This document shows positions 2,299-57,027 of a stretch of DNA of 64,000 nucleotides, piece by piece. The notes beneath the pieces are model-generated. The model was not told the origin of the DNA, did not search any database, and was given only the letters and a program-made list of their open reading frames with translations. Each line of letters begins with the position of its first letter. Position 1 is the stretch's first letter. Source of the DNA: Candidatus Methanomethylophilaceae archaeon (lineage in GTDB: Archaea; Thermoplasmatota; Thermoplasmata; Methanomassiliicoccales; Methanomethylophilaceae); NCBI GenBank assembly GCA_944322255.1, contig CALUOK010000008.1:20507-84506 (forward strand), written 5' to 3'. The translations under genes were made by a program, and so were the position numbers.

Positions 2299-2315
2299 TT
2301 GGACGCATAAACCAA
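2299..2315. promoter_or_regulatory. Operator-like palindrome TTGGAC-GCATA-AACCAA (hem operon)
   Basis: Matches the 17-bp consensus TTGGAT-N5-ATCCAA found across this window at 10 of 12 fixed positions. It sits about 20-25 bp after the TATA-like CATTTATACGA, where transcription would start, and about 67 bp before the first ATG of the operon. A repressor here would block initiation. The binding protein is unknown. Confidence 0.5.
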
Positions 2316-2381
2316 GAGTTTATCACAACCTTCGCCATAGGGGGCGTCCGAAGGAGGAAGGCTGGTTTGGAGAAGGTTCTG

Positions 2382-2999
2382 ATGTCGCCGATCCTGCTGT
2401 CGCCCGGGGACCGTCTGGTCACCGTGTTCGGCGGCGGGAAGGTGGCGCTGCGCAAGTGCAGGCACTTCGAGGGTTTCAGGATCAGGGTGGTCTCGCCCGA
2501 GGTCCTGCCGGAGCTGGAGGCCATCGCCCATGAGGTCATCCGCGAGGCCGTGGACCCCGAGACCGCCGGCGGTTACATGGATGGCTCCGACATCGTCGTC
2601 GCCGCCACCCACGACCACGCGCTGAACGACGCCATCCGCGATGTCTCCATGTCCAAGGGCATCATGACCAACTCCGCCCACGGCGGAGGGGACGTCCTGA
2701 TACCATCCACCCTGCACCGCGACGGGTACACCGTGACGGTGTCCTCCGAGGGGCGCGTCCCGGCGTTCCCGCCGTACGTCATCGAGAGGATCGACGAGTT
2801 CCTGGATCCGTCCTACGACGCCATGCTGGAGCTGCTGGTGGAGCTGAGGAAGGTGATCCGCGACAGGATTCCCACCCAGCCCGGCAGGGCGGAGTTCCTG
2901 GCGTCGGTCCTCGCCGATGAGACGATCTGGGGGATGCTCAGGGACGGCGACACCGAGGGCGCGTACCGCCGCGCCCTAGCAGAGGGCGGTCTGTCATGA
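2382..2999 (+). CDS. Precorrin-2 dehydrogenase (siroheme synthase N-domain, Met8p-like)
   Basis: NAD-dependent oxidation of precorrin-2 to sirohydrochlorin, the branch point for cobalamin, F430 and siroheme. The Rossmann glycine motif VTVFGGGKVALRK occupies residues 13-25. The protein is 205 residues and lacks the SUMT domain of CysG, which is supplied by the separate cobA. I chose the ATG at 2382 because MSPILL...GDR matches the family N-terminus and GGAGAAGG precedes it; an in-frame TTG at 2367 after GGAGG is an alternative. It is the first gene of the operon and overlaps hemA by ATGA. Whether it also chelates metal, as Met8p does, cannot be judged. Confidence 0.85.
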   Translation: MSPILLSPGDRLVTVFGGGKVALRKCRHFEGFRIRVVSPEVLPELEAIAHEVIREAVDPETAGGYMDGSDIVVAATHDHALNDAIRDVSMSKGIMTNSAHGGGDVLIPSTLHRDGYTVTVSSEGRVPAFPPYVIERIDEFLDPSYDAMLELLVELRKVIRDRIPTQPGRAEFLASVLADETIWGMLRDGDTEGAYRRALAEGGLS

Positions 3000-4237
3000 T
3001 CGTTAGCATGCATGTCACACACACCTCCGCCGGGGGCACGGAGGGTCTGAACAACGTGGTCCCCATCCTCGAGGAGGAGGTCGCCAAGAGGATCTCGGTC
3101 CTGGACTCGGTGAACGAGTACATCATAGTCAGGACCTGCAACCGCTTCGAGGTCTACACCGCCACCGCCGACAACAGGGAGGTGGCCGACTACCTGAACT
3201 TCATAATCAGGTCCATAGTCCCCTCGTCCAACATCGCCTACATCCTGGAGGACAAGGAGAGCATCAAGCACCTGTTCAGGGTGGTCTGTGGCCTGGACTC
3301 GCTGATCGTCGGCGAGGACCAGATCCAGCACCAGGTCAGGGAGTCCTACGCCAGGGCCAAGGAGGAGGGGCACGTGGGCCAGATGCTCACCCGCCTCTTC
3401 GACAACGCCATGATCGTCGGCAAGAGGGTCAGGTCGGAGACCGCGCTGAACAAGGGCGCGGTGTCCGTGGGGTCCGCCGCCGTGGAGCTGGCAGAGAGCA
3501 GGATCGGGGACCTGAGCGGGAAGGCGATCACCATCCTGGGCGCCGGGGACATAGCCTCGGTGATATCCAAGAACCTGATCGGCAAGAACGTGGGCACGGT
3601 CATCGTGTCCAACAGGACCTACAGCCGCGCCATAGAGCTGGCGGACGAGCTGGGCGGGAAGGCGGTCAGCATGGCCCGCCTCACCGAGGCCGTGGCCGAC
3701 TCCGACCTGGTCCTGGTGGCCACTGGCGCTCCACACGCGGTGCTGCACTGGCACCATGTCGCGGATGCCATGAGGATGCGCCCGGACAGGAAGCTGCTGA
3801 TCATCGACGTGTCCGTCCCCAGGAACACCGACGACGAGGTCGCGGAGATCCCCAACGTGGAGCTGGACAACATGGACGCGCTCCAGACCATCGCCATGCG
3901 CAACGTGGAGCGCAGGAGGAACGAGATCGTCTCCGCCGAGAGGATCATCGGCCAGGAGCTGGCCAGGCTGGACGCGGAGCAGAAGGAGCAGATGGCGAAC
4001 GACGTGATCCGCAGGATCGGGATCAGGGTCGCCCAGATAAGGGAGCACGAGCTGGACACCGCGCTGTCCAGGGCGGGCTCCGCCGACGTACACGAGCTCC
4101 TGGACGACCTGTCCAGGGCTCTCGCAAACAAGTTCACGGCCGAACTCTACAAGAACCTGAGGGAGGCCTCGCGCGACGGGCGCGTCGACACGTGCAACGC
4201 GGCCGTCGACCTTTTCGGATTGAGGGATGTTCAATGA
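2996..4237 (+). CDS. hemA: Glutamyl-tRNA reductase
   Basis: Reduces glutamyl-tRNA(Glu) to glutamate-1-semialdehyde with NADPH, the committed step of the C5 tetrapyrrole route. The catalytic-Cys signature RTCNRFEVY lies at residues 46-54 (Cys48), the substrate loop GLDSLIVGEDQIQ near 100-112, and the NADPH-binding ITILGAGDIASVI near 178-190. A C-terminal dimerisation helix region follows. Its 413 residues are normal for the family. Start and stop overlap the neighbouring genes by 4 bp, implying translational coupling with the dehydrogenase and hemB. Confidence 0.95.
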   Translation: MIVSMHVTHTSAGGTEGLNNVVPILEEEVAKRISVLDSVNEYIIVRTCNRFEVYTATADNREVADYLNFIIRSIVPSSNIAYILEDKESIKHLFRVVCGLDSLIVGEDQIQHQVRESYARAKEEGHVGQMLTRLFDNAMIVGKRVRSETALNKGAVSVGSAAVELAESRIGDLSGKAITILGAGDIASVISKNLIGKNVGTVIVSNRTYSRAIELADELGGKAVSMARLTEAVADSDLVLVATGAPHAVLHWHHVADAMRMRPDRKLLIIDVSVPRNTDDEVAEIPNVELDNMDALQTIAMRNVERRRNEIVSAERIIGQELARLDAEQKEQMANDVIRRIGIRVAQIREHELDTALSRAGSADVHELLDDLSRALANKFTAELYKNLREASRDGRVDTCNAAVDLFGLRDVQ

Positions 4238-5205
4238 TGATGTACCCAGATGTGCGTCTGAGGAGACTCAGACAGAGCGACAGGATGAGGAACCTCGTGG
4301 CGGAGACCAGGCTGCACCCGGACGAGCTGGTGCTGCCCATCTTCTTCGACGCGAACATCGACAAGGTCAAGGTGACCGGCTCCATGCCCGGGGTGGAGAC
4401 ATACCCGCTCTCGGGTTACGAGGACATCGCCGGGGACATCCAGGGCAATGGGGTCAACTCCGTCCTGGTGTTCGGCGTGCCCAGCCACAAGGACGCCTGC
4501 GGCACCGGCGCCTACGAGAAGGAGGGCGTGGTGCAGAAGGCCATCGCCGGCCTGAAGGAGAACTCCGACATGCTGGTCATCGCCGACCTGTGCCTGTGCG
4601 AGTACACCGACCACGGCCACTGCGGCGTCCTGGACAAGGATGGATACGTCATGAACGACGAGACCATCGAGCTGTACGGCAAGACGGCTGTGTCTCAGGC
4701 CGAGGCCGGTGCCGACATAATCGCCCCCAGCGGCATGATGGACGGCCAGATCGCCGCCATCAGGATGGCCCTGGACGACGCCGGGTTCAAGAACGTCCCC
4801 ATCATGGCGTACAGCGCCAAGTTCTACAGCGCGTACTACGGTCCATTCAGGGACGTGGCCAACTCCGCCCCCGGCAAGGGCAACCGCGCCGGGTACCAGA
4901 TGCCCTGCGGCAACAGGCTGGAGGCCATGAGGGAGATCGAGATGGACGTGGCCGAGGGAGCGGACATGATCATGGTCAAGCCCGCCGGCCCGTACCTGGA
5001 CATCATCCGCGACGCCAGGGACAGGTTCGACCTGCCGCTGGCCGCGTACCAGGTCTCCGGGGAGTACGCGATGATTAAAGCAGCAGCCGCCAACGGATGG
5101 ATCGACGAGGAGAGGATCATGATGGAGTCGCTCCTGGGGATCAAGAGGGCCGGCGCGGACATCCTGATAACATACTTCGCTAGAGAGGCGGCCAGGCTGA
5201 TGTGA
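4234..5205 (+). CDS. hemB: Porphobilinogen synthase (delta-aminolevulinate dehydratase)
   Basis: Condenses two 5-aminolevulinate molecules to porphobilinogen. Zinc-site cysteines are in DLCLCEYTDHGHC (Cys120, Cys122, Cys130). The Schiff-base lysines are in AYSAKFYSAYYGPFR (Lys196) and MIMVKPAGPYLD (Lys249), so this is the zinc-dependent type. The product is 323 residues. The start is one of three consecutive ATGs (4234, 4237, 4240); I take 4234, which overlaps the hemA stop as ATGA. It is followed 4 bp later by hemL. Confidence 0.95.
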   Translation: MMMYPDVRLRRLRQSDRMRNLVAETRLHPDELVLPIFFDANIDKVKVTGSMPGVETYPLSGYEDIAGDIQGNGVNSVLVFGVPSHKDACGTGAYEKEGVVQKAIAGLKENSDMLVIADLCLCEYTDHGHCGVLDKDGYVMNDETIELYGKTAVSQAEAGADIIAPSGMMDGQIAAIRMALDDAGFKNVPIMAYSAKFYSAYYGPFRDVANSAPGKGNRAGYQMPCGNRLEAMREIEMDVAEGADMIMVKPAGPYLDIIRDARDRFDLPLAAYQVSGEYAMIKAAAANGWIDEERIMMESLLGIKRAGADILITYFAREAARLM

Positions 5206-15698: not shown

Positions 15699-15715
15699 TT
15701 GGATTATACATCCAA
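15699..15715. promoter_or_regulatory. Operator palindrome TTGGAT-TATAC-ATCCAA
   Basis: Exact match (12/12) to the window-wide 17-bp consensus. It lies 57-73 bp upstream of the binding-protein start at 15772, one of two copies in this promoter. Confidence 0.7.
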
Positions 15716-15746: not shown

Positions 15747-15763
15747 TTGGATATAGCATCCAA
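15747..15763. promoter_or_regulatory. Operator palindrome TTGGAT-ATAGC-ATCCAA
   Basis: Exact match to the consensus. It occupies -25 to -9 relative to ATG 15772, where the TATA box of a leaderless transcript would be (GGATATAG), so occupancy should exclude TBP or polymerase. Centres of the two copies are 48 bp apart. Confidence 0.7.
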
Positions 15764-15771: not shown

Positions 15772-17187
15772 ATGAACAAGAAGTTTGTTGCATTGGTGGT
15801 AGTCGCCATCGTCCTGGTCGCGGCGGTGGTCGCCGTCGCAGCCAATACCAAATCCGGAAGCGGCGGGTCGGACGAAATCGATCTCGTTTCTAGCGGAAAC
15901 TACCTGAAGATCTTCGGGAACGCGAACGGGGACCATCTGATCGATGAGACCGACGTGAACATTATCCAAGATTACATCAATGGAGACGTCAAGGATTCAG
16001 ATCTGATCAGAGTCACTGAAGAGGATAACGGAAACGTGTATTATCTGGCGGATGCGAATCTCGATGGCACCGTTGATGAGAAGGACATCAGTTATCTCAG
16101 GGGGATCATCGACAGAACCGGGGAGGAGATGAGTCTGATCGATACATTCGGCCATCTTGTCACGGTTCCCATGACTAGCAACCGCATCATTTGCGATTAT
16201 TTCGCCACTGCGGAACTGCTGATGCTGGTTGGTGTCCAGGACAAAATCGTCGGAGCCAGCAATGCGCTCATGGTCCTCTCTGACTATTACCTGCAGGGAG
16301 CTGATTTGGACAACGTGGTGAATTTCTACAGCAGGACCGCACCCGACTACGAGGCTGTGGCCGAGGCGAATCCTGACATCTGGGTCGTATCGGAAGATTA
16401 TGCGCCGACATACGGCAACAATGTCAACTGCCCAGTTGTCGGGCTGGACAGCCTTGTGTTCGATTTCGAGGATATCTATTCCAGCAGTCCGATCATGTCT
16501 GCTCTTCTCGCAGGGTATATTTTCAACAATGTGGACAAGGCAATAGAGTATGTCAACTGGTATCTGGAGAAGTGGGATATGCTCTACTCGGTGACCTCAC
16601 AGCTCTCCGATGATGAGAAGCCCACCGTCTTCTGCACAGGGTATGACAACCATGTAGTGGATCAGAGTGTGAACCAGTGTCGTGTCTTCCTCAGCAATAC
16701 CGTGCCGTACAAGGCTGTGGAGCTCGCCGGTGGGAAGAACATCATAGATGATTGCTCATCACTGCCAGATCCCAAGCCCAGGCCCACTTCCAATGTCAAT
16801 ATGGAGTTGGAATGGATATCGGAGCAGAAGTACGATTACATGTTCGTCCACTGCACCAAGTACACCGGTTCCGGGGGAATATCCTCGACCGTTCCAGACC
16901 ACGGCTATACCTGCCATGATCCTTCCGAATACAGGGCAGCACAGGATGGGCTGGGAGATATCGTGCCATTCTCGAACAGCTGCGATCCCGACAACATGTA
17001 TCTGATGCCGGGCGACTACATGAACGGGGCATCTGGAGGCATACTGTCTGCAATCGAAATCGCCAGTGTCATCCATCCCGAACTGTTCCCGGATCTGGAT
17101 GTTCTGGAGGAACAGCAGGAGTACATCGATCTGATGGGATTCGACTACGACGTTCATCAGGGCGTGTTCTTCCTGGAGAATGCTTAA
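15772..17187 (+). CDS. ABC transporter substrate-binding protein with dockerin-like repeats
   Basis: A 471-residue extracellular solute-binding protein. Residues 5-25 are a hydrophobic N-terminal anchor or signal without a lipobox Cys. Residues ~44-120 hold two dockerin-type calcium loops (GNANGDHLIDETD and ADANLDGTVDEKD, each followed by a helix). From ~125 a FecB/BtuF-like domain begins (DTFGHLVTVPMTSNRIIC). Such proteins bind ferric siderophores, heme or cobamides. Permease and ATPase genes follow at once, separated by a small hairpin. Two operators lie upstream. G+C looks lower than in the hem and cbi operons, and direct repeats flank the cassette, hinting at separate ancestry. Confidence 0.8.
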   Translation: MNKKFVALVVVAIVLVAAVVAVAANTKSGSGGSDEIDLVSSGNYLKIFGNANGDHLIDETDVNIIQDYINGDVKDSDLIRVTEEDNGNVYYLADANLDGTVDEKDISYLRGIIDRTGEEMSLIDTFGHLVTVPMTSNRIICDYFATAELLMLVGVQDKIVGASNALMVLSDYYLQGADLDNVVNFYSRTAPDYEAVAEANPDIWVVSEDYAPTYGNNVNCPVVGLDSLVFDFEDIYSSSPIMSALLAGYIFNNVDKAIEYVNWYLEKWDMLYSVTSQLSDDEKPTVFCTGYDNHVVDQSVNQCRVFLSNTVPYKAVELAGGKNIIDDCSSLPDPKPRPTSNVNMELEWISEQKYDYMFVHCTKYTGSGGISSTVPDHGYTCHDPSEYRAAQDGLGDIVPFSNSCDPDNMYLMPGDYMNGASGGILSAIEIASVIHPELFPDLDVLEEQQEYIDLMGFDYDVHQGVFFLENA

Positions 17188-23078: not shown

Positions 23079-24110
23079 TCAAACGAACCTCGGTTCTATC
23101 CTGCGGCGGCAGACCGCGACGGTCATCCCGTCCCTCGCCGTCTTCCTCAATATGAAATCGTTTCCGCCCGACGCCATGGCGGCCGAGCGCTCGCAGACGC
23201 AGTCCACCTCTGTGACGCTCTGCACGAACTGTGACCTGGAGTAATCGCCTTCCAGGGAGTTCAGCTCCCCGGAGGTGTAGAACCTCGCCGGAGCCTTCAG
23301 GTTCCTGGCAAGTTCGAGGATGGCCTCCTCGTCCCTCTTGATGTCTATGCTGGCCACGGCCGCGACCCTCTCGGGTGCGATGCCCAGGGACTCCAGCGTC
23401 TCGGACACGAAACCATGCAGTTTCGATGGGTCCGTGCCCCTCTTGCAGCCCACACCCAGGACGACGTCCATGGGGACAAGGTTCAGTGTGACCCCGAACG
23501 GTGCCTTCTCGGGATCGGCGGAGACGCAGACCCCAAACTCGCCGGAGTCGGCGACGGTGATCCCGTCGGGGAGGTCCCCTGTTATTTCTATATCGGAGCA
23601 GAATCCGACGAACCTGCCGTCTAGGACCCTCGCGGAGACGTCCTTGGCGATCTTGAGCGAGGAGATCCTCATGCCGTTCCTGGTGGCGAATGTGTCCACC
23701 GAGAACTTCCCGTTGAGGTCGGTGGCCGTTGTGATGATCGCCTCGGCGCCTATGCCGTCGGCGATCCTCTCGGTGAGTTGGTTGCAACCGCCTATGTGTC
23801 CGGACAGCAGGGCTATGGCCCATCTGCCGTGCTCGTCGATGCATACGACCGCGGGATCGGTGTCCTTGCTCCTCACGTACGGTGTGATGTACCTCACGGC
23901 TATTCCCGTGGCCCCGACGAAGACGATGGCGTCGCATTCGGAGAACGATGTCCCGACCCACTCGCGGACCGGGCCCTGTACCGGTTCGAGACCGAGGCTG
24001 TCAGATGACGTCTTGGAGAAGAGGCGGACGTCCTCGTCCGCCAGCGCCTCCCCGACCCTCTTGGCGGTGGCGCATCCGTTGGTGGAGAACGCCACGACGT
24101 CGATTCTCAT
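23079..24110 (-). CDS. cbiG: Cobalt-precorrin-5A hydrolase CbiG
   Basis: Opens the delta-lactone of cobalt-precorrin-5A, releasing acetaldehyde. A 343-residue product with the CbiG N- and central-domain signatures IVFVGATGIAVRYITPYVRSK-like (residues ~63-83) and LLSGHIGGCNQLTERIA, and the C-terminal domain VLGVGCKRGTD...L, which includes ASIDIKRDE. The start ATG at 24110 overlaps the cbiD stop; a longer in-frame extension lies inside cbiD and is rejected. Confidence 0.92.
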   Translation of the reverse strand: MRIDVVAFSTNGCATAKRVGEALADEDVRLFSKTSSDSLGLEPVQGPVREWVGTSFSECDAIVFVGATGIAVRYITPYVRSKDTDPAVVCIDEHGRWAIALLSGHIGGCNQLTERIADGIGAEAIITTATDLNGKFSVDTFATRNGMRISSLKIAKDVSARVLDGRFVGFCSDIEITGDLPDGITVADSGEFGVCVSADPEKAPFGVTLNLVPMDVVLGVGCKRGTDPSKLHGFVSETLESLGIAPERVAAVASIDIKRDEEAILELARNLKAPARFYTSGELNSLEGDYSRSQFVQSVTEVDCVCERSAAMASGGNDFILRKTARDGMTVAVCRRRIEPRFV

Positions 24111-25261: not shown

Positions 25262-25313
25262 TTTTGTCCACCAGTCCGTACCAGCGTGCCATACTGTATA
25301 CTGATAATGCGAA

Positions 25314-25330
25314 TTGGATACATCCGCCAA
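25314..25330. promoter_or_regulatory. Operator-like palindrome TTGGAT-ACATC-CGCCAA in the cbiD/cbiL divergent promoter
   Basis: 10 of 12 consensus positions. It abuts the TATA-like CTTATAATAC (25331-25340) that would serve cbiL, whose ATG is 46 bp further on after an AAGGAGTGA ribosome site. Because the region is divergent it could regulate both cbi operons. Confidence 0.5.
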
Positions 25331-26087: not shown

Positions 26088-26093
26088 CCAAGG

Positions 26094-28553: not shown

Positions 28554-28570
28554 TTGGATGAATCATCCTA
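28554..28570. promoter_or_regulatory. Operator TTGGAT-GAATC-ATCCTA (cbiM, upstream copy)
   Basis: 11 of 12 consensus positions. It lies just upstream of the TATA-like TTTATACATAA (about 28575-28585). Confidence 0.65.
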
Positions 28571-28588: not shown

Positions 28589-28605
28589 TTGGATTCAACA
28601 TCCAA
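28589..28605. promoter_or_regulatory. Operator TTGGAT-TCAAC-ATCCAA (cbiM, downstream copy)
   Basis: Exact consensus. It sits just after the TATA element, over the expected transcription start. The two copies flank the TATA box with centres 35 bp apart. The leader from here to cbiM (28676) also holds CCGGGACATGTCCCGG, a short hairpin at about 28640-28656. Confidence 0.7.
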
Positions 28606-34522: not shown

Positions 34523-37500
34523 TGCATCCCCTCGAACCCTTCCTCCAGTTCCATGAACAGCTCCTCGAGCTGGGCACGGGTATCCGCGTCGGGCGACCAC
34601 ATGCCCCTGCCCACAGCCTCCAGGAGCCTGGAGGCCGTCTCGTACATCGCGTACGGATTGGCCTCCCTGAACCACTCCGCCGTCTCCTCGTCGAACAGGA
34701 ACCTGTCCGCGATCGACTGGTACATCCACGGGTCGACGATGTCGGACGTGGCATCCCAACCGAAGACGTACTCGGTCATGTTGGATATCTCCTCGGCACC
34801 CTTGAATCCGTGGCGTTTCAGGCCCTCCAGCCATCTGGGGTTGTTTATCTTGCTCCTGAAGATGAAGCGCCCCTCCTCGTCCACGGTGCGGGTCCTGACC
34901 CTGGAGGGGTCGGCGGAGGAACCGATCACAGACATGGGCATGCACCCCCTCACCGATCTCACGGCGGCGTTGAGTCCGCCGAGGTCGTTGTACACATCGT
35001 CGTTGTCGAACATGTCGTATTCGCGGCTGGTGCTGTTCTTCACAGTCACATCCATCTGTTCCAGCCTCCTGCGGAACATCTCGGGCATGGCCTCGCCCTT
35101 GCGGCCGATGCCGTACGCGTACTGGCCGTAGCTTCTGAATATCGACCCTATGTCGGACACGTCCTTCCAGTCCGACGTGCGTACCAGGATGTTGGTCCCG
35201 GACCCGTAGGTCCCCGGGGCGTCCCCGAATATGCGGACCGCCGCCTCCTCGCGGGCCCTGTCCTCGGGTATGCCCTCGGCGATGGCCCTGGATACATCCT
35301 CGCGGACGTTGGCCAGAAGGTGGTTCTCCTCGTCGCTCTCGTCGAGTGCGGCTATCATCCGGACGCCCTCGTCGATGAGGTTCACCAGGTAGGGGAACGT
35401 GTCCCTGAACAGGCCGCTGATCCTCAGCGTGACGTCGATGCGGGGGCGTCCGAGCTCGGACAGAGGGATGACCTCCAGGCCGGTCACCCTGCCGGCGTAT
35501 CCCGTCCACACCGGGCGCAGTCCCAGGAGCCACAAGACGTAGGCGACGTCGTCCCCACCGGTCTTCATGGTGTCCGTGGCCCAGATGACCATTCCCACGG
35601 TGCGCGGATACGCCCCGTGGTCCGACACATAGAGCTCCAGCATCTGGTCGGCCATCTTGCGGCCTATGTCCCAGCTGCTGTGCCATGGCACGGCCTCCGG
35701 GTCGATCGAGTAGAAGTTCCTGCCGGTGGGCAGGATCTGGGCCCTGCCGCGTGTAACGCATCCAGCGGGGCCCGGCTCGATGAACCTCCCCTCCAGTGCG
35801 CGGAGCGTGTTCCTGATCTCGTCTGAGGTCTTCAGGAGGTTCGGGTGGAGGTCGTCGCAGATGAACCTCACGGTCGCCTCCGCGTCACGGTTCCCTCCGA
35901 GCCTGTCGCGCACCATAGACACGGACGCCTCCGGGTCGAACCCGAGGTCCATGATCCCGCCGATCAGGTCGAAGGTAAGGTCGTCGACATAGTCCAGGAC
36001 CTCGCCGTTGATTCTCCCGGAGGATGTGCGTCCCGACGGGTCGTCGATCAACGCGTCGAGGTCGTATCCGAGGCCGCTTGCGACCGAACGTCTGAGCGAC
36101 GGGACCTCGCCGTTGTCAAGACGGGTGAGCGAGTACAGGGCCTCAAGCATGAGCCGCCCTTCCGGCGGTCTTCCCAGTATGTGCAGGCCGTCCTTGATCA
36201 GGGAGTCCTTGACCTCGGTGATGTAGTCGTAGATGTCGTCGACGCGTTCGGCCAGCTCCGCATCGTTGCAGTCCGGGGACAGCTTGAGGTCGTTGTGCAG
36301 CTCCATCGACACCATCTGGTCGCGTATCTCGGACAGTATCATCGGAAGGGAGCCGTCGTTATGCTTGGAACAGGCGTCCATGTACATCTGGACGGCGGTC
36401 TCCAGCCGTTCGATCTCATCGTATCCCCCGGCGCGGGTCATTATTGGGATCATGTGGTCGATGATGACGGCTGAAGCCCGTCTTTTGGCCTGGATCCCCT
36501 CCCCCGGGTTGCCGATGATGTAGGGGTAGACGTCGGGCAGGGAATCCATCACGTAGTCGGGGCAGCAGTCGCCGGAGAGGGCCACGGATTTCCCGGGGAG
36601 CCACTCCAGTGTGCCGTGGGTCCCGACATGGACGACGGCATCGGCGCCGAAGACGTTCCTGAGCCATCTGTAGAACGCCAGGTACTGGTGTGGCATCACC
36701 GTGTCCGGGTCGTGGTAGCTCTTCTGGATGTCCCTTCCCCTGTCGGGTTGGAACCCTACGAAGACGTTCCCGAACATCCTGCCCGGTATCGTGAATCCGC
36801 CGTCCACCGTGTAGAACTCCCCGGGGGGTTCTCCCCAGCCATCCTCGATGCGTCCCATCGCGTCGTCCGAAAGGGCCGAGTACCATCTCCGGTAGGCATC
36901 CATGGGGACCACGTCCGCCGCCCTCCTGCGGACCTCCTCGTCCGACAGCCACTCGGTGTCGTTCGTCAGTCCCGACATGAGCATGTCCGTGAGGTCCTTC
37001 GCCGTCTCCGGAACGGCTCCGCCGACGTCGTACCCCTCCTCAGCCATCCTGTGAAGCAGGTCGACGACGCTGGCGAACGTGTCCAGTCCGGAGGCGCCGC
37101 CGGCGTTCGAGTTCTTGGGCGGGTACATGTAGAGTAGGACGGCCACCCTCCTGTCCCGGTTGGGTGTGCGGCGAAACCTGGCCCACATGACGGCCATGTC
37201 GGCCAGGCGATCGGCCCGTTCGGCGATGGATACGTAGCGCCTGGTGTCGTCGGTGCGCTCCGTACAGGCCGAGGGGACACCGATGATCTGACCGTCGAAC
37301 TCCGGATGGGCCACGTCGTAGGCTATCTCGGGAGGTGTGAGTCCGAACACGTTGTCCCTCCATGTTTCGAAGTTGGAGGCCACGGTCATCGCCTGGATGA
37401 CGGGGACACCGTAGGACAGCATGAAGTTGTCATCGCACACCTGCTCCCCGCACCCGGGGCTGGCTATCAGCGTCTGGGAGAAGCTCATCGTCTCGATGAT

Positions 37501-38241
37501 GGCATCGAGCACCGGCTCCCCGTCACGGGACAGCTTCTCGGAAAGTATGCGTTTCACCCCCATGGACCCGGAGGCGGCGTCCTCGTACGTCCTCAGGAAG
37601 ACCGGAACCGGTACGCCCCCGTGCCTTTCCACAGCACTGATCAGCCCGTCCACATTGTCCAGGTTCCCGGTCAGCCATTGCTTCTGGTAGAAGAAGATCC
37701 CGATGACTGGTTTACCCTCGTCGATGCCGTCGATGTAGTCCTCGAACCCTATGCTTTCCCTGCCCGGGTAGTACAGGCCCTGGGCCGGAGGGACCTCAGG
37801 AAGCGGCACATCGACGTCCTCGCCGTCGAACCTGCGGATGCCCCACAGGATGAGGTTCCTGTAGTTCTCGTCACCACCAAGCGAGAAGTACGTCAGTGCC
37901 AGCACATATTCCTCGTCCGTACCGTCGAACATCCAACGGAACTCCGATGTGACCTCGTCATCCGAGCACAGCAGCAGTCCGCTGGCCTTCCCGGACTCGA
38001 TCGCATCCCTGAGGCGCTGGAACCTTCTCATGAGCGTCGGGTCCCCATGGACCTTTATTGTCACCAGATCGGCGTCTCCGATGATCCCGAGCGCTTCGTG
38101 AAGCAGTGCAGGGTCGGAGTCGAGGTCGGTGGCGTCGAAGTTGACGTAATCAAGGACGGGATGCTCCCGGGCCACCTCCGAGGCCGCGGCGTTGAGTAGG
38201 AAACTATCCATGGTTCCGATGGAGATGTTGACCAAGCGCAT
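34519..38241 (-). CDS. cobN: CobN/BchH-type chelatase large subunit, copy 1
   Basis: 1240 residues, the usual CobN length. The conserved core is at ~residues 525-620: HQYLAFYRWLRNVFGADAVV, VHVGTHGTLEWLPGKSVALS, CCPDYVMDSLPDVYPYIIG, NPGEGIQAKRR. Further on are VGMVIWATDTMKTGGDDVAY and the C-terminal EYVFGWDATSDIVDPWMYQ. In aerobic cobalamin synthesis CobN inserts Co2+ with ATPase partners; in archaea with the early-cobalt route its substrate is unknown. First gene of an operon with an ABC-2 transporter, divergent from a FecBCD importer. A weak operator (38250) lies 9 bp upstream of the start. Paralogue of 44596-48342. Confidence 0.88.
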   Translation of the reverse strand: MRLVNISIGTMDSFLLNAAASEVAREHPVLDYVNFDATDLDSDPALLHEALGIIGDADLVTIKVHGDPTLMRRFQRLRDAIESGKASGLLLCSDDEVTSEFRWMFDGTDEEYVLALTYFSLGGDENYRNLILWGIRRFDGEDVDVPLPEVPPAQGLYYPGRESIGFEDYIDGIDEGKPVIGIFFYQKQWLTGNLDNVDGLISAVERHGGVPVPVFLRTYEDAASGSMGVKRILSEKLSRDGEPVLDAIIETMSFSQTLIASPGCGEQVCDDNFMLSYGVPVIQAMTVASNFETWRDNVFGLTPPEIAYDVAHPEFDGQIIGVPSACTERTDDTRRYVSIAERADRLADMAVMWARFRRTPNRDRRVAVLLYMYPPKNSNAGGASGLDTFASVVDLLHRMAEEGYDVGGAVPETAKDLTDMLMSGLTNDTEWLSDEEVRRRAADVVPMDAYRRWYSALSDDAMGRIEDGWGEPPGEFYTVDGGFTIPGRMFGNVFVGFQPDRGRDIQKSYHDPDTVMPHQYLAFYRWLRNVFGADAVVHVGTHGTLEWLPGKSVALSGDCCPDYVMDSLPDVYPYIIGNPGEGIQAKRRASAVIIDHMIPIMTRAGGYDEIERLETAVQMYMDACSKHNDGSLPMILSEIRDQMVSMELHNDLKLSPDCNDAELAERVDDIYDYITEVKDSLIKDGLHILGRPPEGRLMLEALYSLTRLDNGEVPSLRRSVASGLGYDLDALIDDPSGRTSSGRINGEVLDYVDDLTFDLIGGIMDLGFDPEASVSMVRDRLGGNRDAEATVRFICDDLHPNLLKTSDEIRNTLRALEGRFIEPGPAGCVTRGRAQILPTGRNFYSIDPEAVPWHSSWDIGRKMADQMLELYVSDHGAYPRTVGMVIWATDTMKTGGDDVAYVLWLLGLRPVWTGYAGRVTGLEVIPLSELGRPRIDVTLRISGLFRDTFPYLVNLIDEGVRMIAALDESDEENHLLANVREDVSRAIAEGIPEDRAREEAAVRIFGDAPGTYGSGTNILVRTSDWKDVSDIGSIFRSYGQYAYGIGRKGEAMPEMFRRRLEQMDVTVKNSTSREYDMFDNDDVYNDLGGLNAAVRSVRGCMPMSVIGSSADPSRVRTRTVDEEGRFIFRSKINNPRWLEGLKRHGFKGAEEISNMTEYVFGWDATSDIVDPWMYQSIADRFLFDEETAEWFREANPYAMYETASRLLEAVGRGMWSPDADTRAQLEELFMELEEGFEGMQ

Positions 38242-38249: not shown

Positions 38250-38266
38250 CTGGATGTATATTCCAT
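38250..38266. promoter_or_regulatory. Weak operator-like site CTGGAT-GTATA-TTCCAT (cobN copy 1)
   Basis: 9 of 12 consensus positions, 9 bp upstream of the cobN start on the minus strand. Degenerate, and plausible mainly by context. Confidence 0.3.
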
Positions 38267-38396: not shown

Positions 38397-38413
38397 TTGG
38401 ATATTACATCCAA
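38397..38413. promoter_or_regulatory. Operator TTGGAT-ATTAC-ATCCAA
   Basis: Exact consensus at -28 to -12 relative to ATG 38425, the same placement as at 15747. Confidence 0.7.
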
Positions 38414-44432: not shown

Positions 44433-44449
44433 TCGGATGATACTGCCAA
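44433..44449. promoter_or_regulatory. Weak operator-like site TCGGAT-GATAC-TGCCAA (chlI-like gene)
   Basis: 9 of 12 consensus positions, 12 bp upstream of the ATPase start on the minus strand, matching the placement of stronger copies elsewhere. Confidence 0.35.
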
Positions 44450-44595: not shown

Positions 44596-47500
44596 ATGCG
44601 CATGGACATAATTTACATCTCCATCCAGAGCACGGACGCGGCCAGCATGAGGGGCCCTGTCGAGTCCCTATGCGGAGAGAAGGGTTGGGACATGCGCATC
44701 ACATGTGCGAACGACTCGGATGTGGACGCCGACCCCGTCCTCTACCACGACATCGCCGTGAGGGCCCGTGACGCCGACCTGGTGCTTGTCAGATGCATGT
44801 CCGATCCCACCCGCATGAGGAGGTTCGCCGACCTGGAGAAGGTGCTCCGCGAGTCGAGTGGTTACGTGATGGTGTACTCCGGGAACATGGAGGTCGGCCT
44901 GATGTACAGGGACCTGTTCAAAGGGGACGACGTCCAGTACGCCAGGCTTCTCGGGTTCGTGAGGGGGAGGGGCCCGGAGAACGACCGCGGGATCGTCATG
45001 TGGCTCCACAACGCACTCACCGGCGAGGGGGAGGTCCCAGAGCCCGTCTCGCACCGTTCCAGCGGGATTCACCACCCCCGTTTCGATTCCGACGTGACCC
45101 TGGAGGAGTACAGAGCCTCCCTGGACCCGGATAGGCCGACGGTCGGCCTGATGTACCCGGTGAACCTCTGGATCTACGACAACCAGGCCCACATAGACGC
45201 GCTCATCGCAGAGCTGGAGGACCAGGGTATGAACGTGATCCCGGTGTTCTTCGCATCCACCGTGGCGTCCGATTCGGCGAAACGCGGCACGGCATCGGTT
45301 GCAGAGGAGTTCTTCACCGACGGCGGTAGGCCCACCGTGGACGCCGTCATAATGACGACCCCGTTCTCCCAGCTAAACAACTCCCGCGACTGCTCAGGGC
45401 TCTACACCCCGGACGAGCAGAACTTCTTCCACACGATGCTCGGGGTGCCGGTGTTCCAGGCGATGACGTCACCGGTCCATTTCTCGGATTACGAGGAGAT
45501 ATCCGCCAAGGGCGGCACTGACGGGTTCAAGGTCAGCGTCATCTGGGCGGAGGTGGACGGGCAGATAATCACGGTCCCTGTGGGGAGCAACGAGGGCGGG
45601 AGGGGAGGTCCCAAGCGCTACACGCCCATCCCGGACAGGATATCGCATCTCGCCCGGGCCGTGGGAGGCTGGGTGAGGCTCGCACGCAAGCCCCCGTCGG
45701 AACGCAGGGTCGCCCTGCTGATGTACCAGTCAAGGCCCGACTCGGGGAGGATCGGCGCCGCCGCCGGCCTGGACACCGTGCAGAGCGTCAGGGACATCCT
45801 GGAGCGTCTCTCGGCCGAGGGGTACTTGTTGGACCACGTCCCCGCCGACCAGGGGGAACTGGTCTCGGAGCTGCTCGACGGGATAACGAACGACCTGGAG
45901 TGGTCGTCTTCCCGGAGGGTGAGGGAGAGGGCGGCCGGTTCGATGTCCGTCGGCGAGTACAGGGGGCACTACGACCGGATCCCGGGGTTCGACAGGTCCC
46001 GCATGGAGGATGCATGGGGAGAGCCCCCGGGGAGCGTCTGCGTAGACGACGGCAGGTTCGTCATTCCCGGTCTCGTGAACGGCAACGTGTACATCGGATA
46101 CCAGCCCATGAGGTCATGGGCCGACCAGGTGGAGGCCGTGTACCACGACCCGGTCATCCCCATGCCCCATCAGTACCTTGCATTCTACAGATGGCTCAGG
46201 GACGTGTTCCGGGCGGACGTGGTGGTGCACATGGGCACCCACGGCACGCTGGAGTGGCTCCCCGGGAGGAGCCTCGGGCTGTCCGGGAAGTGCTTCCCGG
46301 ACCTGGTCCTGGACGGGATCCCGAACGTGTACCCGTATGTGATCGACGATCCGGGGGAGGGGATCCAGGCGAAACGCAGGTCCGAGGCCGTCCTCATAGG
46401 CCACATGTGCCCCACGATGACCAGGGCGGGGAAGTACGATGAGATCGAGGCCATCGACGAGCCGCTCCAGGAGTACTTCAAGGCCCGCACCTCCTCCGCC
46501 GAGGTCCGCTCCTCGATCCTCGGGCAGCTGCTCGAGGCGGTCCGCGGAGCCGGGATGATGGAGGAGCTGGGGATACCCGAGGACATCGATCCGGAGGGTC
46601 TGGAGCCCTATGTGGAGGGGATCCACGACCACGTGTCGGAGGTCAAGGACCTGCTGATCCGCGATGGCCTCCACATCCTCGGGAGGGCGCCGGAGGACGA
46701 GCTGCTCACCGAGGACATCTATTCGCTGACGCGTCTCCGCAACGGGAGCGTTCCGTCGCTCAGGGAGTCCGTCGCGAGGGCGATGGGCTACGACCTGGAC
46801 TCCATAATGTCGGATCCCTCGGGAACCACGGGCGGGACGGTCAATTCCGTCGTACTCGACGGGATCGAGGACAGGACCATGTCGTTGCTGGCATCGATGC
46901 AGGAGGCCGGCTACGATGCCGACAGGTGTCTCGCAATCGCATCGGAGCTCGGCGGGAGCGGGGAGCTGGACGTGGTGGTCCGCTACATCTGTGAGATGGT
47001 CGTGCCGAACCTCCGCAGGATGACAGACGAGATGGACAACCTGTTGCGCGCCCTCGACGGCGGGTACGTCCTTCCGGGCCCCTCGGGAGCGCCCACGCGC
47101 GGGAACGCGTCAATCCTCCCGATGGGCAGGAACTACTACGGCATAGATCCGGACATAGTGCCCACGCCGGCTGCCTGGGACATCGGCAGGAGGATGGCCG
47201 ACAAGATGGTGGAGAGGTATGTGGCCGAGAAAGGCTCGTATCCGAAGGAGATCGGGTTCATCATATGGGCCACGGACACCATGAAGACCAACGGCGACGA
47301 TGTGGCCTACATCCTATGGCTGATGGGGGTCAGGCCGGTCTGGTCCCGCATGGGTGGGCAGGTCATAGGCATCGAGCCCGTGCCGCTGTCCGAACTGGGA
47401 AGGCCCAGGCTGGACGTCACCGTCAGGATCACCGGTCTGTTCAGGGACGCGTTCCCGAACCTGATCGACCTCATAGACGACGCGGTCAAGCTGGTGGCGG

Positions 47501-48342
47501 GATTGGACGAGTCCGAGGAGGACAACGTCATGGCCGCCAACCTGCGCAGGGACATCATAGAAGGCATGGCCAACGGACTGACCGTTGACGAGGCCCGCAG
47601 GAGGGGCTCCGTGCGCATATTCGGCTGCCCTCCCGGAGGATACGGCGCGGGTGTGAACCATGCCATCGAGACCGGGGACTGGAAGACCGTTCAGGACCTG
47701 GCGGACATCTACATCAGGTGGGGCGGTCACGCCTACGGCCGCGACCTACACGGGGAGAGCATGAGGGACGAGTTCGTCCGCAGGTTCTCGAGGGTCGGTG
47801 TAACCGTGAAGAACATGCCCGACAGGGAGATAGACCTCCTGGACATCGACGACGTCTACGGGTATCTCGGCGGACTGAACTCGTTCGTCAGGGCATACGG
47901 GAACAAGGACGCCGTCTCCTACATGGGTGACGGGTCGGACCCGGACAGGGTCAGGGTTAGGGGCACCAAGGAGGAGCTGGCCCTGGTCTACCGGAGCAAG
48001 GTGCTCAACCCGAAGTTCGTGGAGGGCCTGAAGCGCCACGGTTACCGCGGGGTGTCCGAGATCGCCAACCTGACGGAGTACACCTTCGGCTGGGATGCCA
48101 CGTCGGACGTGGTGGACGACTGGATGTACCAGAAGCTCACCGAGCGCTACCTGTTCGACGACGACACCCGGGAGTGGATGGAGGATGAGAACCCGCACGC
48201 CATGATGGACATCATGGACCGTCTGTTCGAGGCCATCGACCGCGGCATGTGGGATGCGGACGGGGAGACCGTAGACCGCCTGAAGGAAATATACCTGGAG
48301 CTCGAGGGGAGGGTGGAGGAGGTCAACGACCGTCGATCCTGA
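44596..48342 (+). CDS. cobN: CobN/BchH-type chelatase large subunit, copy 2
   Basis: 1248 residues, clearly paralogous to copy 1. Core: HQYLAFYRWLRDVFRADVVV, HMGTHGTLEWLPGRSLGLS, CFPDLVLDGIPNVYPYVID, DPGEGIQAKRR. Later it shows IGFIIWATDTMKTNGDDVAY and EYTFGWDATSDVVDDWMYQ. The substrate-lobe N-terminal ~350 residues diverge most from copy 1, suggesting a different tetrapyrrole. It is divergent from the ChlI/ChlD-like motor genes and followed by a FecBCD importer. It may insert a metal (Co, Ni) or, like CobN-related heme-processing proteins in anaerobes, remove one. Confidence 0.88.
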   Translation: MRMDIIYISIQSTDAASMRGPVESLCGEKGWDMRITCANDSDVDADPVLYHDIAVRARDADLVLVRCMSDPTRMRRFADLEKVLRESSGYVMVYSGNMEVGLMYRDLFKGDDVQYARLLGFVRGRGPENDRGIVMWLHNALTGEGEVPEPVSHRSSGIHHPRFDSDVTLEEYRASLDPDRPTVGLMYPVNLWIYDNQAHIDALIAELEDQGMNVIPVFFASTVASDSAKRGTASVAEEFFTDGGRPTVDAVIMTTPFSQLNNSRDCSGLYTPDEQNFFHTMLGVPVFQAMTSPVHFSDYEEISAKGGTDGFKVSVIWAEVDGQIITVPVGSNEGGRGGPKRYTPIPDRISHLARAVGGWVRLARKPPSERRVALLMYQSRPDSGRIGAAAGLDTVQSVRDILERLSAEGYLLDHVPADQGELVSELLDGITNDLEWSSSRRVRERAAGSMSVGEYRGHYDRIPGFDRSRMEDAWGEPPGSVCVDDGRFVIPGLVNGNVYIGYQPMRSWADQVEAVYHDPVIPMPHQYLAFYRWLRDVFRADVVVHMGTHGTLEWLPGRSLGLSGKCFPDLVLDGIPNVYPYVIDDPGEGIQAKRRSEAVLIGHMCPTMTRAGKYDEIEAIDEPLQEYFKARTSSAEVRSSILGQLLEAVRGAGMMEELGIPEDIDPEGLEPYVEGIHDHVSEVKDLLIRDGLHILGRAPEDELLTEDIYSLTRLRNGSVPSLRESVARAMGYDLDSIMSDPSGTTGGTVNSVVLDGIEDRTMSLLASMQEAGYDADRCLAIASELGGSGELDVVVRYICEMVVPNLRRMTDEMDNLLRALDGGYVLPGPSGAPTRGNASILPMGRNYYGIDPDIVPTPAAWDIGRRMADKMVERYVAEKGSYPKEIGFIIWATDTMKTNGDDVAYILWLMGVRPVWSRMGGQVIGIEPVPLSELGRPRLDVTVRITGLFRDAFPNLIDLIDDAVKLVAGLDESEEDNVMAANLRRDIIEGMANGLTVDEARRRGSVRIFGCPPGGYGAGVNHAIETGDWKTVQDLADIYIRWGGHAYGRDLHGESMRDEFVRRFSRVGVTVKNMPDREIDLLDIDDVYGYLGGLNSFVRAYGNKDAVSYMGDGSDPDRVRVRGTKEELALVYRSKVLNPKFVEGLKRHGYRGVSEIANLTEYTFGWDATSDVVDDWMYQKLTERYLFDDDTREWMEDENPHAMMDIMDRLFEAIDRGMWDADGETVDRLKEIYLELEGRVEEVNDRRS

Positions 48343-48501: not shown

Positions 48502-48518
48502 TAGGATGATTAATCCAA
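48502..48518. promoter_or_regulatory. Operator TAGGAT-GATTA-ATCCAA
   Basis: 11 of 12 consensus positions at -30 to -14 relative to ATG 48532, over the expected transcription start for a TATA near 48467. Confidence 0.6.
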
Positions 48519-48531: not shown

Positions 48532-49428
48532 ATGGAGATAAGAATCAACGACGTGGGCTTTTCATACGCCAGCGTTCCTGTTCTCAGCGGGATAAGCCTG
48601 GATATCAAGGGCCCCGGTTTCGTTTCAATCCTGGGTCCCAACGGCGTCGGGAAGTCGACCCTGATACACTGCATCAACAAGATCCTGCAGCCCAAATCGG
48701 GGTCGGTCCTCATAGACGGGAAGGATGTCAGGGACATCTCCATCAAGGAACTGGCCAAGGATGTCGGATACGTTCCGTATTCGGCCAATGACACTTTTCC
48801 CCTGACAGTAGTGGACACCGTCATGATGGGGAGGCATCCCCATTCCAAATGGAACACGCTGGATCGGGACCTGGACATCGTCTACGACACATTGAGGATG
48901 CTCGGCATATCCCACCTGGCCATGCGCCAGTTCAACGAGCTCTCCGCAGGGCAGCACCAGAAGGTGATGCTCGCCAGAGGGCTCGTCCAGGAGCCGCAGA
49001 TCCTCCTTCTGGACGAACCCACGTCGAATCTGGACATCCGCCATCAGCTCGATGTGACGAAGATGCTGAAGAGGCTCTCCGAAGAGCGCGGCATCCTCAT
49101 CGTCATGATCAGTCACGACATCAACATCGCCGCGAAGTTCGCCGACCAGGTGATCCTGATGTTCCAGGGCAGGATCTACGATGTGGGCGCGCCGGCGGAG
49201 GTGATCACGGAGGACAACCTCCGCAGCGTCTACGGGGTGGAGTCGAAGGTGATCGACGATGACGGCAGGCCCCATGTCATACTGAAGGATGCCCTGCCCA
49301 TGTCGGAGTCCTGCAACCCGTCGGCCGTCATGGCCCACATCAGGGCCCAGCGTGCGTCACAGGACGCCGCGGACTCGGACGGGAAATCCGTCAGACGTGG
49401 TGTCGAACGCATCCTCGGCCGCACATGA
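48532..49428 (+). CDS. FecE/BtuD-type ABC ATPase
   Basis: 298 residues. Walker A GPNGVGKST, Q-loop region VGYVPYSAND, signature LSAGQHQK, Walker B ILLLDEPTSNLD, H-loop SHDINIA. A ~45-residue hydrophilic tail follows the ATPase domain. Here the ATPase comes first in the importer operon, unlike the two other FecBCD sets; it is closest in style to the ATPase at 18309. Confidence 0.9.
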   Translation: MEIRINDVGFSYASVPVLSGISLDIKGPGFVSILGPNGVGKSTLIHCINKILQPKSGSVLIDGKDVRDISIKELAKDVGYVPYSANDTFPLTVVDTVMMGRHPHSKWNTLDRDLDIVYDTLRMLGISHLAMRQFNELSAGQHQKVMLARGLVQEPQILLLDEPTSNLDIRHQLDVTKMLKRLSEERGILIVMISHDINIAAKFADQVILMFQGRIYDVGAPAEVITEDNLRSVYGVESKVIDDDGRPHVILKDALPMSESCNPSAVMAHIRAQRASQDAADSDGKSVRRGVERILGRT

Positions 49429-54963: not shown

Positions 54964-54980
54964 TTGGTTTATGCATCCAA
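54964..54980. promoter_or_regulatory. Operator TTGGTT-TATGC-ATCCAA
   Basis: 11 of 12 consensus positions in a gene-poor AT-rich stretch. Nearest candidate target is the minus-strand frame or RNA at 54764-54933; no plus-strand gene follows. Confidence 0.55.
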
Positions 54981-55032: not shown

Positions 55033-55049
55033 TTGGATGTATATGTCAA
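55033..55049. promoter_or_regulatory. Half-site TTGGAT-GTATA-TGTCAA
   Basis: Perfect left half with a poor right half (9 of 12 overall), next to two better sites. Confidence 0.3.
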
Positions 55050-55095
55050 CTCTAAATACTCGGACACCCATGATGTAGCGGTCACAGGAAACCAA

Positions 55096-55188: not shown

Positions 55189-55292
55189 ATCTCGGCTTAC
55201 TGTCCGAATATCGGCCCGTTCTTGACATCATCCACAGATGGGTTCGTAGATGGGGTCGTGGAGACTCTGCGCCCATCGGATGCCGGATGACT

Positions 55293-56051
55293 TCAGCACC
55301 TGTTGGTCCTGATCAACCAATAGCATGCGGCGAAGAACGCTGCGGTGTAGGCCAGGAGTATCAGCACGGAGTCGAAAGGTACGCCGGTATCCAGCATCAG
55401 CCCCCTCATGATCCCGCTGACATGGGTCAGGGGCAGCGCGTACACCACCCACGACGCCCCGTCGGGCAGGGCGGATACGTCGAACAGGGTGCCGCAGAGG
55501 AACGTCATGGGGATTATCGCGATGCTGTTGAACAGGTTCAGCCTCTGGGTGTGGTTGCACAGCATCCCGGCCAGCATCCCGAAGCAGGAGAACGTGAAAC
55601 CAGCCACCAGGACAACCACAAACACCCAGGGGTCGAAGGTCACGTCCGGGGAGACCAGATGGCCGATCGCCATTATCGCGGTGCAGCTTATCAGCGCCCT
55701 CACCGTCCCGGCAAGTGTCTTGCCCAGGACCATCGAGGAAATGTGAATGGGGCACAGCTTCAGCTCGTCGAAGCTCATGTAGAACAGCCTCTGCAGCAGG
55801 ATCTTCATGGATACGGTGCTGAAGGTCGCCGACAGCGTGGTCAACGCTATGATCCCGGGGATGATGAATGCGATGTACTGGGAGCTGCCCTGCTCCATGC
55901 TTCCTCCGAGGCCGAAGCCGAAGGCGAGCAGGTACAGCAGCGGGCCGACGAGGCAGGTCACCAGGACCTCTCCGATGTTGTCCCTGATGTACACCAGGTC
56001 GCCCCACGCGACCCTGTACGTCTCGTCCAGGATGGTCAGCGGTCCGGTCAT
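55293..56051 (-). CDS. ABC-2 type permease (set 3)
   Basis: 252 residues, ~6 TM helices. VLVTCLVGPLLYLLAFGFGLG, LLQRLFYMSFDELKLCPIHI and AIIPMTFLCGTLFDVSALP align with set 1, its closest relative here. ATG 56051 overlaps the ATPase stop by 4 bp. Second gene of a two-gene operon under operators at 56984-57027. Confidence 0.82.
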   Translation of the reverse strand: MTGPLTILDETYRVAWGDLVYIRDNIGEVLVTCLVGPLLYLLAFGFGLGGSMEQGSSQYIAFIIPGIIALTTLSATFSTVSMKILLQRLFYMSFDELKLCPIHISSMVLGKTLAGTVRALISCTAIMAIGHLVSPDVTFDPWVFVVVLVAGFTFSCFGMLAGMLCNHTQRLNLFNSIAIIPMTFLCGTLFDVSALPDGASWVVYALPLTHVSGIMRGLMLDTGVPFDSVLILLAYTAAFFAACYWLIRTNRC

Positions 56052-56926
56052 GCCAGGTTCCCTCCGGTTATGGAGAGGTACACGTCCTCCAGGGTGGTCC
56101 TGCGCATGCTGTAGTACCTGTCTCCGAGGGATTTCGCGAACGTCCTCGCCGATCCCCTGTCCGCGAAGTGCCTGCGGACCGTTCTCCCCTCGGCATCGGT
56201 CGTCTCGACGGTCACCCTCCCGACGATGTCCCTGAGCTCGTCGACGGTCCCCATGGCGACGATCCTCCCGTGGTCCATGATGGCGACCCTGTCGCACAGG
56301 AGCTCGGCCTCCTCCATGTAATGGGTGGTGAGGAATATGGTGGTCCCCCTGCCGTTAAGCGTCCTGACCAGGTCCCAGAGCACGTGGCGGGACATGGTGT
56401 CCAGACCCGCGGTCGGTTCGTCGAGAAGCAGTATCTCCGGCTCGTGGACCATCGAGCAGACGATCGACGTCTTCCTCTTCCACCCTCCGGACAGCTCGTC
56501 GACGAGCCTGTCCATGTACTCGTCCAGGCCCAGGAGCTCCACTGCCCTGTCGATCCTGGCGTCCATCTCGGAACGGGGGATCTTGTGCAGGAGGGCGTGC
56601 TGCTTGATGTTCTGCCTGACGGTCAGGTGCTTGTCCAGGCTGATGTGCTGCTGCGCTATGCCTATGCGCTTCCTGACCTCCAGGTAGTCCTTGTCCACGT
56701 CGAAGCCGTCTACCAGGATCCTTCCGGAGGTCATCCTCTGGATGGTGGTGATGGTGCGGATGGTCGTGGTCTTGCCGGCGCCGTTGGGCCCCAGGAACCC
56801 GAAGATCTCGCCGCGTCTGACGGAGAAGCTGATGCCGTCCACTGCAGCCAGGTCGCCGAACCTGACGGTCAGGTCCTGGACCTCTATGATCTCGTCATCG
56901 GGTTTCTCCGTCGTCTCCGGGGTCAC
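56048..56926 (-). CDS. ABC-2 type ATPase (CcmA/DrrA family, set 3)
   Basis: 292 residues. Walker A GPNGAGKTTT, Q-loop IAQQHISLD, signature LSGGWKRK, Walker B ILLLDEPTAGLD, H-loop TTHYMEEAE. GTG 56926 is the start used, without a clear ribosome site. A TATA box (CTATATAAAG on the minus strand, 57010-57001) sits between two operator sites upstream, so it probably belongs to the same regulon as the cobalt importer. Confidence 0.83.
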   Translation of the reverse strand: MTPETTEKPDDEIIEVQDLTVRFGDLAAVDGISFSVRRGEIFGFLGPNGAGKTTTIRTITTIQRMTSGRILVDGFDVDKDYLEVRKRIGIAQQHISLDKHLTVRQNIKQHALLHKIPRSEMDARIDRAVELLGLDEYMDRLVDELSGGWKRKTSIVCSMVHEPEILLLDEPTAGLDTMSRHVLWDLVRTLNGRGTTIFLTTHYMEEAELLCDRVAIMDHGRIVAMGTVDELRDIVGRVTVETTDAEGRTVRRHFADRGSARTFAKSLGDRYYSMRRTTLEDVYLSITGGNLA

Positions 56927-56983
56927 GTCTTGTCATCACGCTCATCGGTTCTTATGCTTGGTCCCGGAATACAGGAAACTATG

Positions 56984-57000
56984 TTGGATGATAATGACAA
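56984..57000. promoter_or_regulatory. Half-site TTGGAT-GATAA-TGACAA
   Basis: 9 of 12 consensus positions, just downstream of the minus-strand TATA box of the ABC-2 operon, over its likely transcription start. Confidence 0.35.
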
Positions 57001-57010
57001 CTTTATATAG

Positions 57011-57027
57011 TTGGATGATATATCCAA
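57011..57027. promoter_or_regulatory. Operator TTGGAT-GATAT-ATCCAA
   Basis: Exact consensus abutting the TATA element CTTTATATAG (57001-57010) of the minus-strand ABC-2 operon. With 56984 it brackets the TATA box, as at cbiM. Confidence 0.7.

Follow-up and report, generated by a model that had tools for sequence, protein, structure and literature searches.

A conserved TTGGAT-N5-ATCCAA palindrome at corrinoid, chelatase, and transporter genes of Methanomassiliicoccales is the probable operator of a predicted cobamide-activated repressor

Introduction

The palindrome TTGGAT-N5-ATCCAA recurs in a 64,000-nucleotide stretch of the genome of a Candidatus Methanomethylophilaceae archaeon (assembly GCA_944322255.1, contig CALUOK010000008.1, positions 20,507 to 84,506). 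This stretch, hereafter the window (G000:C8:20507-84506), is part of a 1.88-Mb genome (1885 kb). The palindrome is probably a conserved signal at the corrinoid (B12) synthesis, chelatase, and ATP-binding cassette (ABC) transporter genes of the order Methanomassiliicoccales, which includes the Methanomethylophilaceae, and is predicted to be the operator of a dimeric repressor activated by cobamide. The element is rare by chance, conserved across the order, extended to a palindrome of 21 base pairs (bp), enriched at corrinoid and transporter genes, and placed at a preferred position relative to TATA-like boxes. A protein probably binds it.

Members of the Methanomassiliicoccales make methane via methyl:corrinoid methyltransferases, as described in a published account (PMC4153887), and therefore depend on cobamides. 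A literature search, conducted mostly without subscription journals, listed no publication on this palindrome and none on how a regulator senses B12 in these archaea. A first-pass annotation of the window had proposed that the palindrome is an operator defining a tetrapyrrole/metal regulon. The regulon is supported, with its scope narrowed to corrinoid synthesis, chelation, and transport.

Results

The window contains five exact copies of TTGGAT-N5-ATCCAA, where 100 dinucleotide shuffles predict 0.00. With at most one mismatch there are 8 sites against 0.11 expected, and with at most two there are 12 against 2.02. All 14 positions listed by the first-pass annotation are present at the match quality it gave, and two further sites with at most two mismatches, at 336 (inside a gene) and 28339, were absent from its list. 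At three mismatches or fewer the excess is small (31 against 19.5), so the four 9/12 sites of the window are individually non-significant and are backed by position only. The source genome as a whole contains the exact palindrome seven times and the reversed pattern not at all; when up to two mismatches are allowed, it has 62 sites against 19. Five of the seven exact copies fall within the window, which makes up 3.4% of the 1885 kb (binomial P 9e-7). The palindrome is over-represented relative to both the shuffles and the reversed control.

Across 147 genomes of the order, exact copies are found in 128 and total 622; the reversed pattern has two. Family f3 (six genomes) carries zero or one copy per genome, and the motif is also missing from some genomes that are fairly complete, G104 and G028 among them. 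In a sample of 389 genomes from the phylum, 50 of the order's 56 members carry the exact motif. Within the same class outside the order it appears in 7 of 84 genomes, one copy apiece; of the 333 non-members in all, 79 have at least one copy and none has more than four. Because copies are so few outside the order, motif abundance is a property of the Methanomassiliicoccales. The site is also kept at orthologous promoters of relatives, namely those of precorrin-2 dehydrogenase-hemA, cobN/chlI, cbiD/cbiH, and binding-protein genes.

A symmetrised logo, built from 157 distinct sites with enough flanking sequence (from 16 fully read genomes and others), extends the element to the 21-bp palindrome aRTTGGATGWWWCATCCAAYt. 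Position -1 is a purine (A 0.42, G 0.47), position -2 favors A (0.55), position 7 favors G (0.58), and the three central bases are A or T at 0.92 or more. No copies with gaps other than 5 bp occur in the studied loci, which is not independent evidence because the loci were picked by the 5-bp gap. An inverted repeat, often in or near a leader, could in principle be a mobile repeat, a terminator, or an mRNA-leader fold rather than a protein site. Such an origin is extremely improbable here: conservation stops 2 bp beyond the palindrome, the logo lacks a T-run, the spacer varies, and no Rfam family matches the window at gathering scores. The same scan found no cobalamin riboswitch in the window.

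The position of the site relative to the promoter supports its location as that of a repressor operator. In 71 single-target promoters, TATA-like hexamers between -36 and -19 from the site start number 14, where the flanks predict 1.6; upstream of the site there are 20, against 6 in the mirrored stretch. Archaeal TATA boxes usually lie approximately 25 bp ahead of the transcription start, so a site preceded at 19–36 bp by a TATA-like box would cover that start. Gene calls come from the open reading frame (ORF) heuristic of the analysis itself, and by these calls the median site ends 21 bp ahead of the start codon (72 windows). The repressor geometry suggested in the first-pass annotation is backed by these positions. 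A dimeric repressor, once activated by cobamide, would bind the palindrome. The bound protein would then cover the transcription start or, at promoters with flanking sites, sit next to the TATA box, and so block TBP/TFB or RNA polymerase. Genes bearing the site would thereby shut off when the B12-type cofactor is plentiful.

One positional feature weighs against repression. A second TATA cluster is found 18–23 bp past the start of the site, with 17 hits over all 151 oriented windows, of which the 71 single-target promoters contribute 6. It would fit activation too, in which a protein bound beside the promoter would recruit TBP when B12 is short. Archaeal Lrp activators bind directly upstream of the TFB recognition element (BRE), according to PMC2995911, which gives this arrangement a precedent. 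Activation is nonetheless unlikely, given that single-target promoters have their TATA-like boxes mainly ahead of the site and that the site usually ends so close to the start codon.

Every exact site was read in 16 genomes (146 of 146). A called gene start lies within 400 bp of 130 of them; 94 are clear of ORFs of at least 100 amino acids (aa), 45 overlap an ORF edge, and 7 are well inside an ORF, one of these owing to a wrong start call. Within 260 bp, a corrinoid-pathway, chelatase, or corrinoid-protein gene accompanies 36 sites and a binding-protein or ABC-transporter gene 47, with either present at 80 of the 146. The genes include cbiA/cobB, cobT-like, cbiT, cbiK, cbiX, cbiM, btuR, met8-hemA, cobN, and chlI. 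The same labels apply to 1 of 223 control genes, which were drawn from site-free loci of three kinds (nikR, zinc-ribbon, and tandem-Lrp) and are not a random set. An earlier control set that included Fur loci was flawed by the presence of cbiM there (7 of 123), and the 223-gene set omits those loci. Genes of B12 synthesis, chelation, and transport are thus over-represented among the targets in the 16 genomes, and weakly so in the source genome outside the window.

Pfam assignments for the 123 nearest genes comprise 100 families, of which 25 were tabulated. These include Peripla_BP_2 (17), the CbiA domain (11; NifH-type proteins match it as well), NifH, nitrogenase component 1, ABC_tran, and zinc alcohol dehydrogenase (7 each), CobN (5), GATase_3 (4), and Fur, ChlI, and DBI_PRT (3 each). 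Individual examples are CbiA with GATase_3 at L046 and L053, BtuR at L061, CbiC at L109, DBI_PRT at L106, ChlI at L081, CbiK at L217, and, at L083, NAD_binding_7 as in precorrin-2 dehydrogenase. CbiX at L060 was named by reading. A transcobalamin-like identity considered for several secreted targets was dropped, as two that were scanned have no such Pfam domain.

Within the window, the sites mark a comparable set of genes. The 10/12 site TTGGACGCATAAACCAA at 2299..2315 lies 51 bp 5' of a precorrin-2 dehydrogenase-type gene (2367) followed by hemA (2996), with a TTTATA box beginning at 2275, 24 bp ahead of the site. In relatives, exact sites occupy the promoter of the precorrin-2 dehydrogenase gene, with cbiT or cbiX as its divergent neighbor (L188, L196, L201, L295). 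A second 10/12 site, at 25314..25330, separates cbiD (24107..25330, minus strand) from a divergent plus-strand gene (25613..27595) whose product has a cobJ/cbiH domain at residues 418–655. The site overlaps the called TTG start of cbiD; the Pfam domain starts only at residue 39, and the true start is probably 3' of the called TTG. At the corresponding divergent promoter of a relative (L038), the site between the two genes is exact. The CobN-like chelatase subunit at 34519..38241 (minus strand) shares 44% identity along its length with the CobN called by Pfam (CobN-Mg_chel) at 44596..48342 (plus strand). Each is preceded by a 9/12 match that is non-significant alone, the former by 38250..38266, 8 bp ahead of its start, and the latter by 44433..44449, 146 bp ahead. 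The chlI/cobN promoters of relatives L030 and L039 bear exact sites. Because relatives have exact sites at the precorrin-2 dehydrogenase, cbiD/cbiH, and chlI/cobN promoters, the weak sites of the window gain support.

Other sites of the window lie at transporter genes. Two exact sites, at 15699..15715 and 15747..15763, precede a Peripla_BP_2 substrate-binding protein gene (15772..17187, plus strand), and a FecCD/BtuC-type permease gene comes next, at 17218; the first site is 56 bp ahead of the gene. Another exact site, at 38397..38413, precedes the ATG at 38425 of a second substrate-binding protein gene, whose called ORF begins at 38287, probably too early. The 11/12 site at 48502..48518 precedes an ABC transporter ATPase gene (48532..49428, plus strand), with FecCD permease genes further 3' at 50863 and 51978. 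The first-pass annotation had stressed placement near start codons, and indeed the sites at 15747, 38397, and 48502 end 8, 11, and 13 bp ahead of the ATG. The TATA bracketing it described is also present at two promoters. At cbiM, an 11/12 site (28554..28570) lies 5' and an exact site (28589..28605) 3' of a TTTATA box, the latter 70 bp ahead of the ATG. The 9/12 match at 56984..57000 and the exact site at 57011..57027 likewise flank a TTTATA box, the exact site being 84 bp ahead of a minus-strand ABC transporter ATPase gene (56048..56926), which is the target of this pair and is ABC-2 type by its neighbor. The CbiM-CbiN cobalt transporter component (28676..29731, plus strand) is a single 351-aa protein in which CbiM is fused to CbiN.

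Two window sites have a different setting. The 11/12 site at 54964..54980 and the 9/12 match at 55033..55049, the latter non-significant alone, lie between convergent ABC-2 operons. The claim that all sites are upstream of the named genes is consequently wrong for this pair. The 620-bp gap between the convergent operons (54672-55293) also has TATA-like stretches, and the sites could serve a small RNA or a short ORF located there. In four genomes of genus g20 (L050, L267, L302, L310), an exact site lies between the convergent ends of genes named by reading as mevalonate-kinase-like and geranylgeranyl-reductase-like.

None of the regulator candidates examined fits the whole order. A metal-ion repressor of the Fur, NikR, or DtxR family, responding to cobalt, nickel, or iron and not to cobamide, is an improbable occupant of the site, even though the targets often include cbiM, chelatase, and binding-protein genes. 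Fur has no match in the source genome nor in its relative G087, which has 19 sites, and it is matched in 63 of the 147 genomes of the order (59 above the family cut-off). The 29 best-matching Fur loci that have a gene call include 3 with the site at the promoter, all three in genus g20, where the fur-cbiM operon shares an exact site with divergent cbiA/cobB; the scanned upstream stretches of the other 26 have no site at two mismatches or fewer. In 20 of these 29 loci (L114-L142) fur adjoins cbiM, and 17 of the 20 promoters lack the site, only the three g20 loci bearing it. Metal import therefore appears to be separately controlled, and Fur is disfavored. Late B12 genes, btuR and cobT-like, bear sites, which also argues against a metal signal. 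The Streptomyces Nur box, tTGCaa-N5-ttGCAA, an operator of the Nur/Fur family, shares with the motif a 17-bp 6-5-6 dyad at metal transport genes, but its half-site differs.

NikR is found in 143 of the 147 genomes, and in the source genome and G034 an exact site lies approximately 600 bp past nikR, on the far side of the adjacent gene. NikR is, however, also present in site-less genomes, and none of 30 further nikR loci has a site with zero or one mismatch. NikR operators have two half-sites about 16 bp apart, and the half-sites of TTGGAT-N5-ATCCAA are 5 bp apart. For DtxR, the rejection concerns its own locus only: dtxR-feoB of the source genome (L040) has no site at up to two mismatches. DtxR and NikR, both put forward as regulators in the first-pass annotation, are accordingly not supported.

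A zinc-ribbon helix-turn-helix (HTH) protein is a recurrent target in family f1, the source genome included. In 8 of its 30 retrieved loci a site with up to two mismatches closely precedes the gene (L144, L145, L146, L150, L151, L171, L172, L173), and the gene is similarly preceded in G073, G087, and G066. As an order-wide regulator it was rejected, being matched in 65 of the 147 genomes with few in the site-rich families f5 and f6; it may be a secondary regulator.

An Lrp/AsnC-type regulator, possibly with a siroheme-decarboxylase-like tetrapyrrole fold and sensing a corrinoid or siroheme-type molecule, is rather doubtful. The 7-3-7 palindrome with its A/T center resembles archaeal Lrp/FFRP (feast/famine regulatory protein) sites, which in PMC2995911 are short palindromes, often several per promoter, such as the 13-bp palindrome bound by FL11. 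A tandem HTH-RAM-HTH-RAM Lrp protein is encoded at L192:3473-4441, 46 bp past an exact site in G135, and its predicted structure (mean predicted local distance difference test score 90) best matches the siroheme decarboxylase NirDL. It has 84 homologues, from Methanomassiliicoccales or Methanomassiliicoccus wherever the listing names a source. Against its candidacy, the protein is matched in 33 of the 147 genomes at E 1e-8 and has no match in the source genome, and 29 of 30 tandem Lrp loci have no site with zero or one mismatch; it is not tied to the motif across the order, and neither its structure comparisons nor its homologues pointed to the regulator. A further, small Lrp gene (L105) was set aside, its site being 289 bp away with a TATA-like stretch in between.

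Several other genes accompany the sites. A protein of 177–222 aa bears a site in five genomes (L016:9680-10348, L070:963-1496, L202:3113-3673, L272:2916-3473, L281:2924-3484); it is located between nikR and topA in some genomes, and two scanned members have no Pfam domain. A search with the protein adjoining nikR returned 39 homologues, a family without a Pfam name and with no lead to the regulator. Fused NifH-NifD-like proteins of approximately 700 aa have a site just 5' (L086, L098, L112, L211, L217, L219, L224, L227), with three loci in G087. In three genomes of the genus a site separates a gene for a 100–104-aa membrane protein from a TFB operon (L027:4704-5191, L094:3509-4044, L080:684-1551). 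This site, 10/12 in G000 and exact in G073 and G095, is read as a target only. Locus L029:8349-14712 has three tandem units, each a 430–634-aa gene followed by a 92–94-aa gene. The short genes are related, by reading, to a 101-aa winged-helix-like protein (L019:5389-5694) whose gene has an 11/12 site 185 bp 5'.

Discussion

The sensed molecule is more probably cobamide, the end product, than cobalt ion, since the site is carried by the late-step genes btuR, cobT-like, and cbiA/cobB and by a TSCPD-type ribonucleotide reductase but is lacking at most of the fur-cbiM promoters examined. The reductase, with barrel and TSCPD domains, lies at a one-mismatch site in the source genome and appears to be a B12-dependent class II enzyme. 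A cobamide-sensing protein, also among the regulators first suggested, is possible.

Other observations count against a B12 operator. An exact copy is lacking in 19 of the 147 genomes. In the 16 genomes, 66 of the 146 sites fall outside the scored gene set, and for 20 of the 66 no gene is called within 260 bp; the scored fraction is low in single genomes (1 of 6 in G016, 3 of 11 in G021). Some of the transporters are of the ABC-2 type. In the window, the sites at 54964 and 55033, between operon ends at approximately 54672 and 55293, are ahead of no recognized gene. Outside it, the source genome has 12 sites with zero or one mismatch, and among the 10 whose neighbors were scanned the ribonucleotide reductase is the only clear B12 link; the others are at topA, Panacea-domain, phosphomannomutase-type, L16, cysteinyl-tRNA-synthetase-type, or Pfam-less genes. 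The operator and regulon proposed for the window nevertheless withstand checks of both genome-wide rarity and conservation at orthologous promoters, with the source-genome sites outside the window mostly at genes without a B12 link.

In bacteria, cobalamin riboswitch regulons place one cis element at the genes for B12 synthesis, cobalt and corrinoid transport, and B12-dependent enzymes. The archaeal motif resembles them in being a single element at these three kinds of gene, and differs in being a short palindromic DNA site, with no RNA element in the window. The nearest published archaeal case found is TrmB of Halobacterium salinarum, a glucose-responsive transcription factor with the motif TACT-N7-8-GAGTA, described as a cob/cbi activator in PMC3794607. 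It likewise acts on cob/cbi genes, while its motif and signal differ.

It is conceivable, though somewhat short of an even chance, that the whole order controls its B12 supply by one dedicated cobamide-responsive repressor-operator pair that replaces the riboswitch, with a repressor belonging to no known cobamide-sensing family. Because the 21-bp site is defined and occurs naturally in hundreds of copies, archaeal B12 sensing becomes directly testable, and the site offers a bait for the regulator. The site also helps to list B12-linked genes of unassigned function, such as the 177–222-aa protein near nikR, the fused NifH-NifD-like proteins, and the zinc-ribbon HTH protein. The motif would serve in these archaea as the cobalamin riboswitch does in many bacteria, and it opens a way to approach a nutrient that gut methanogens use.

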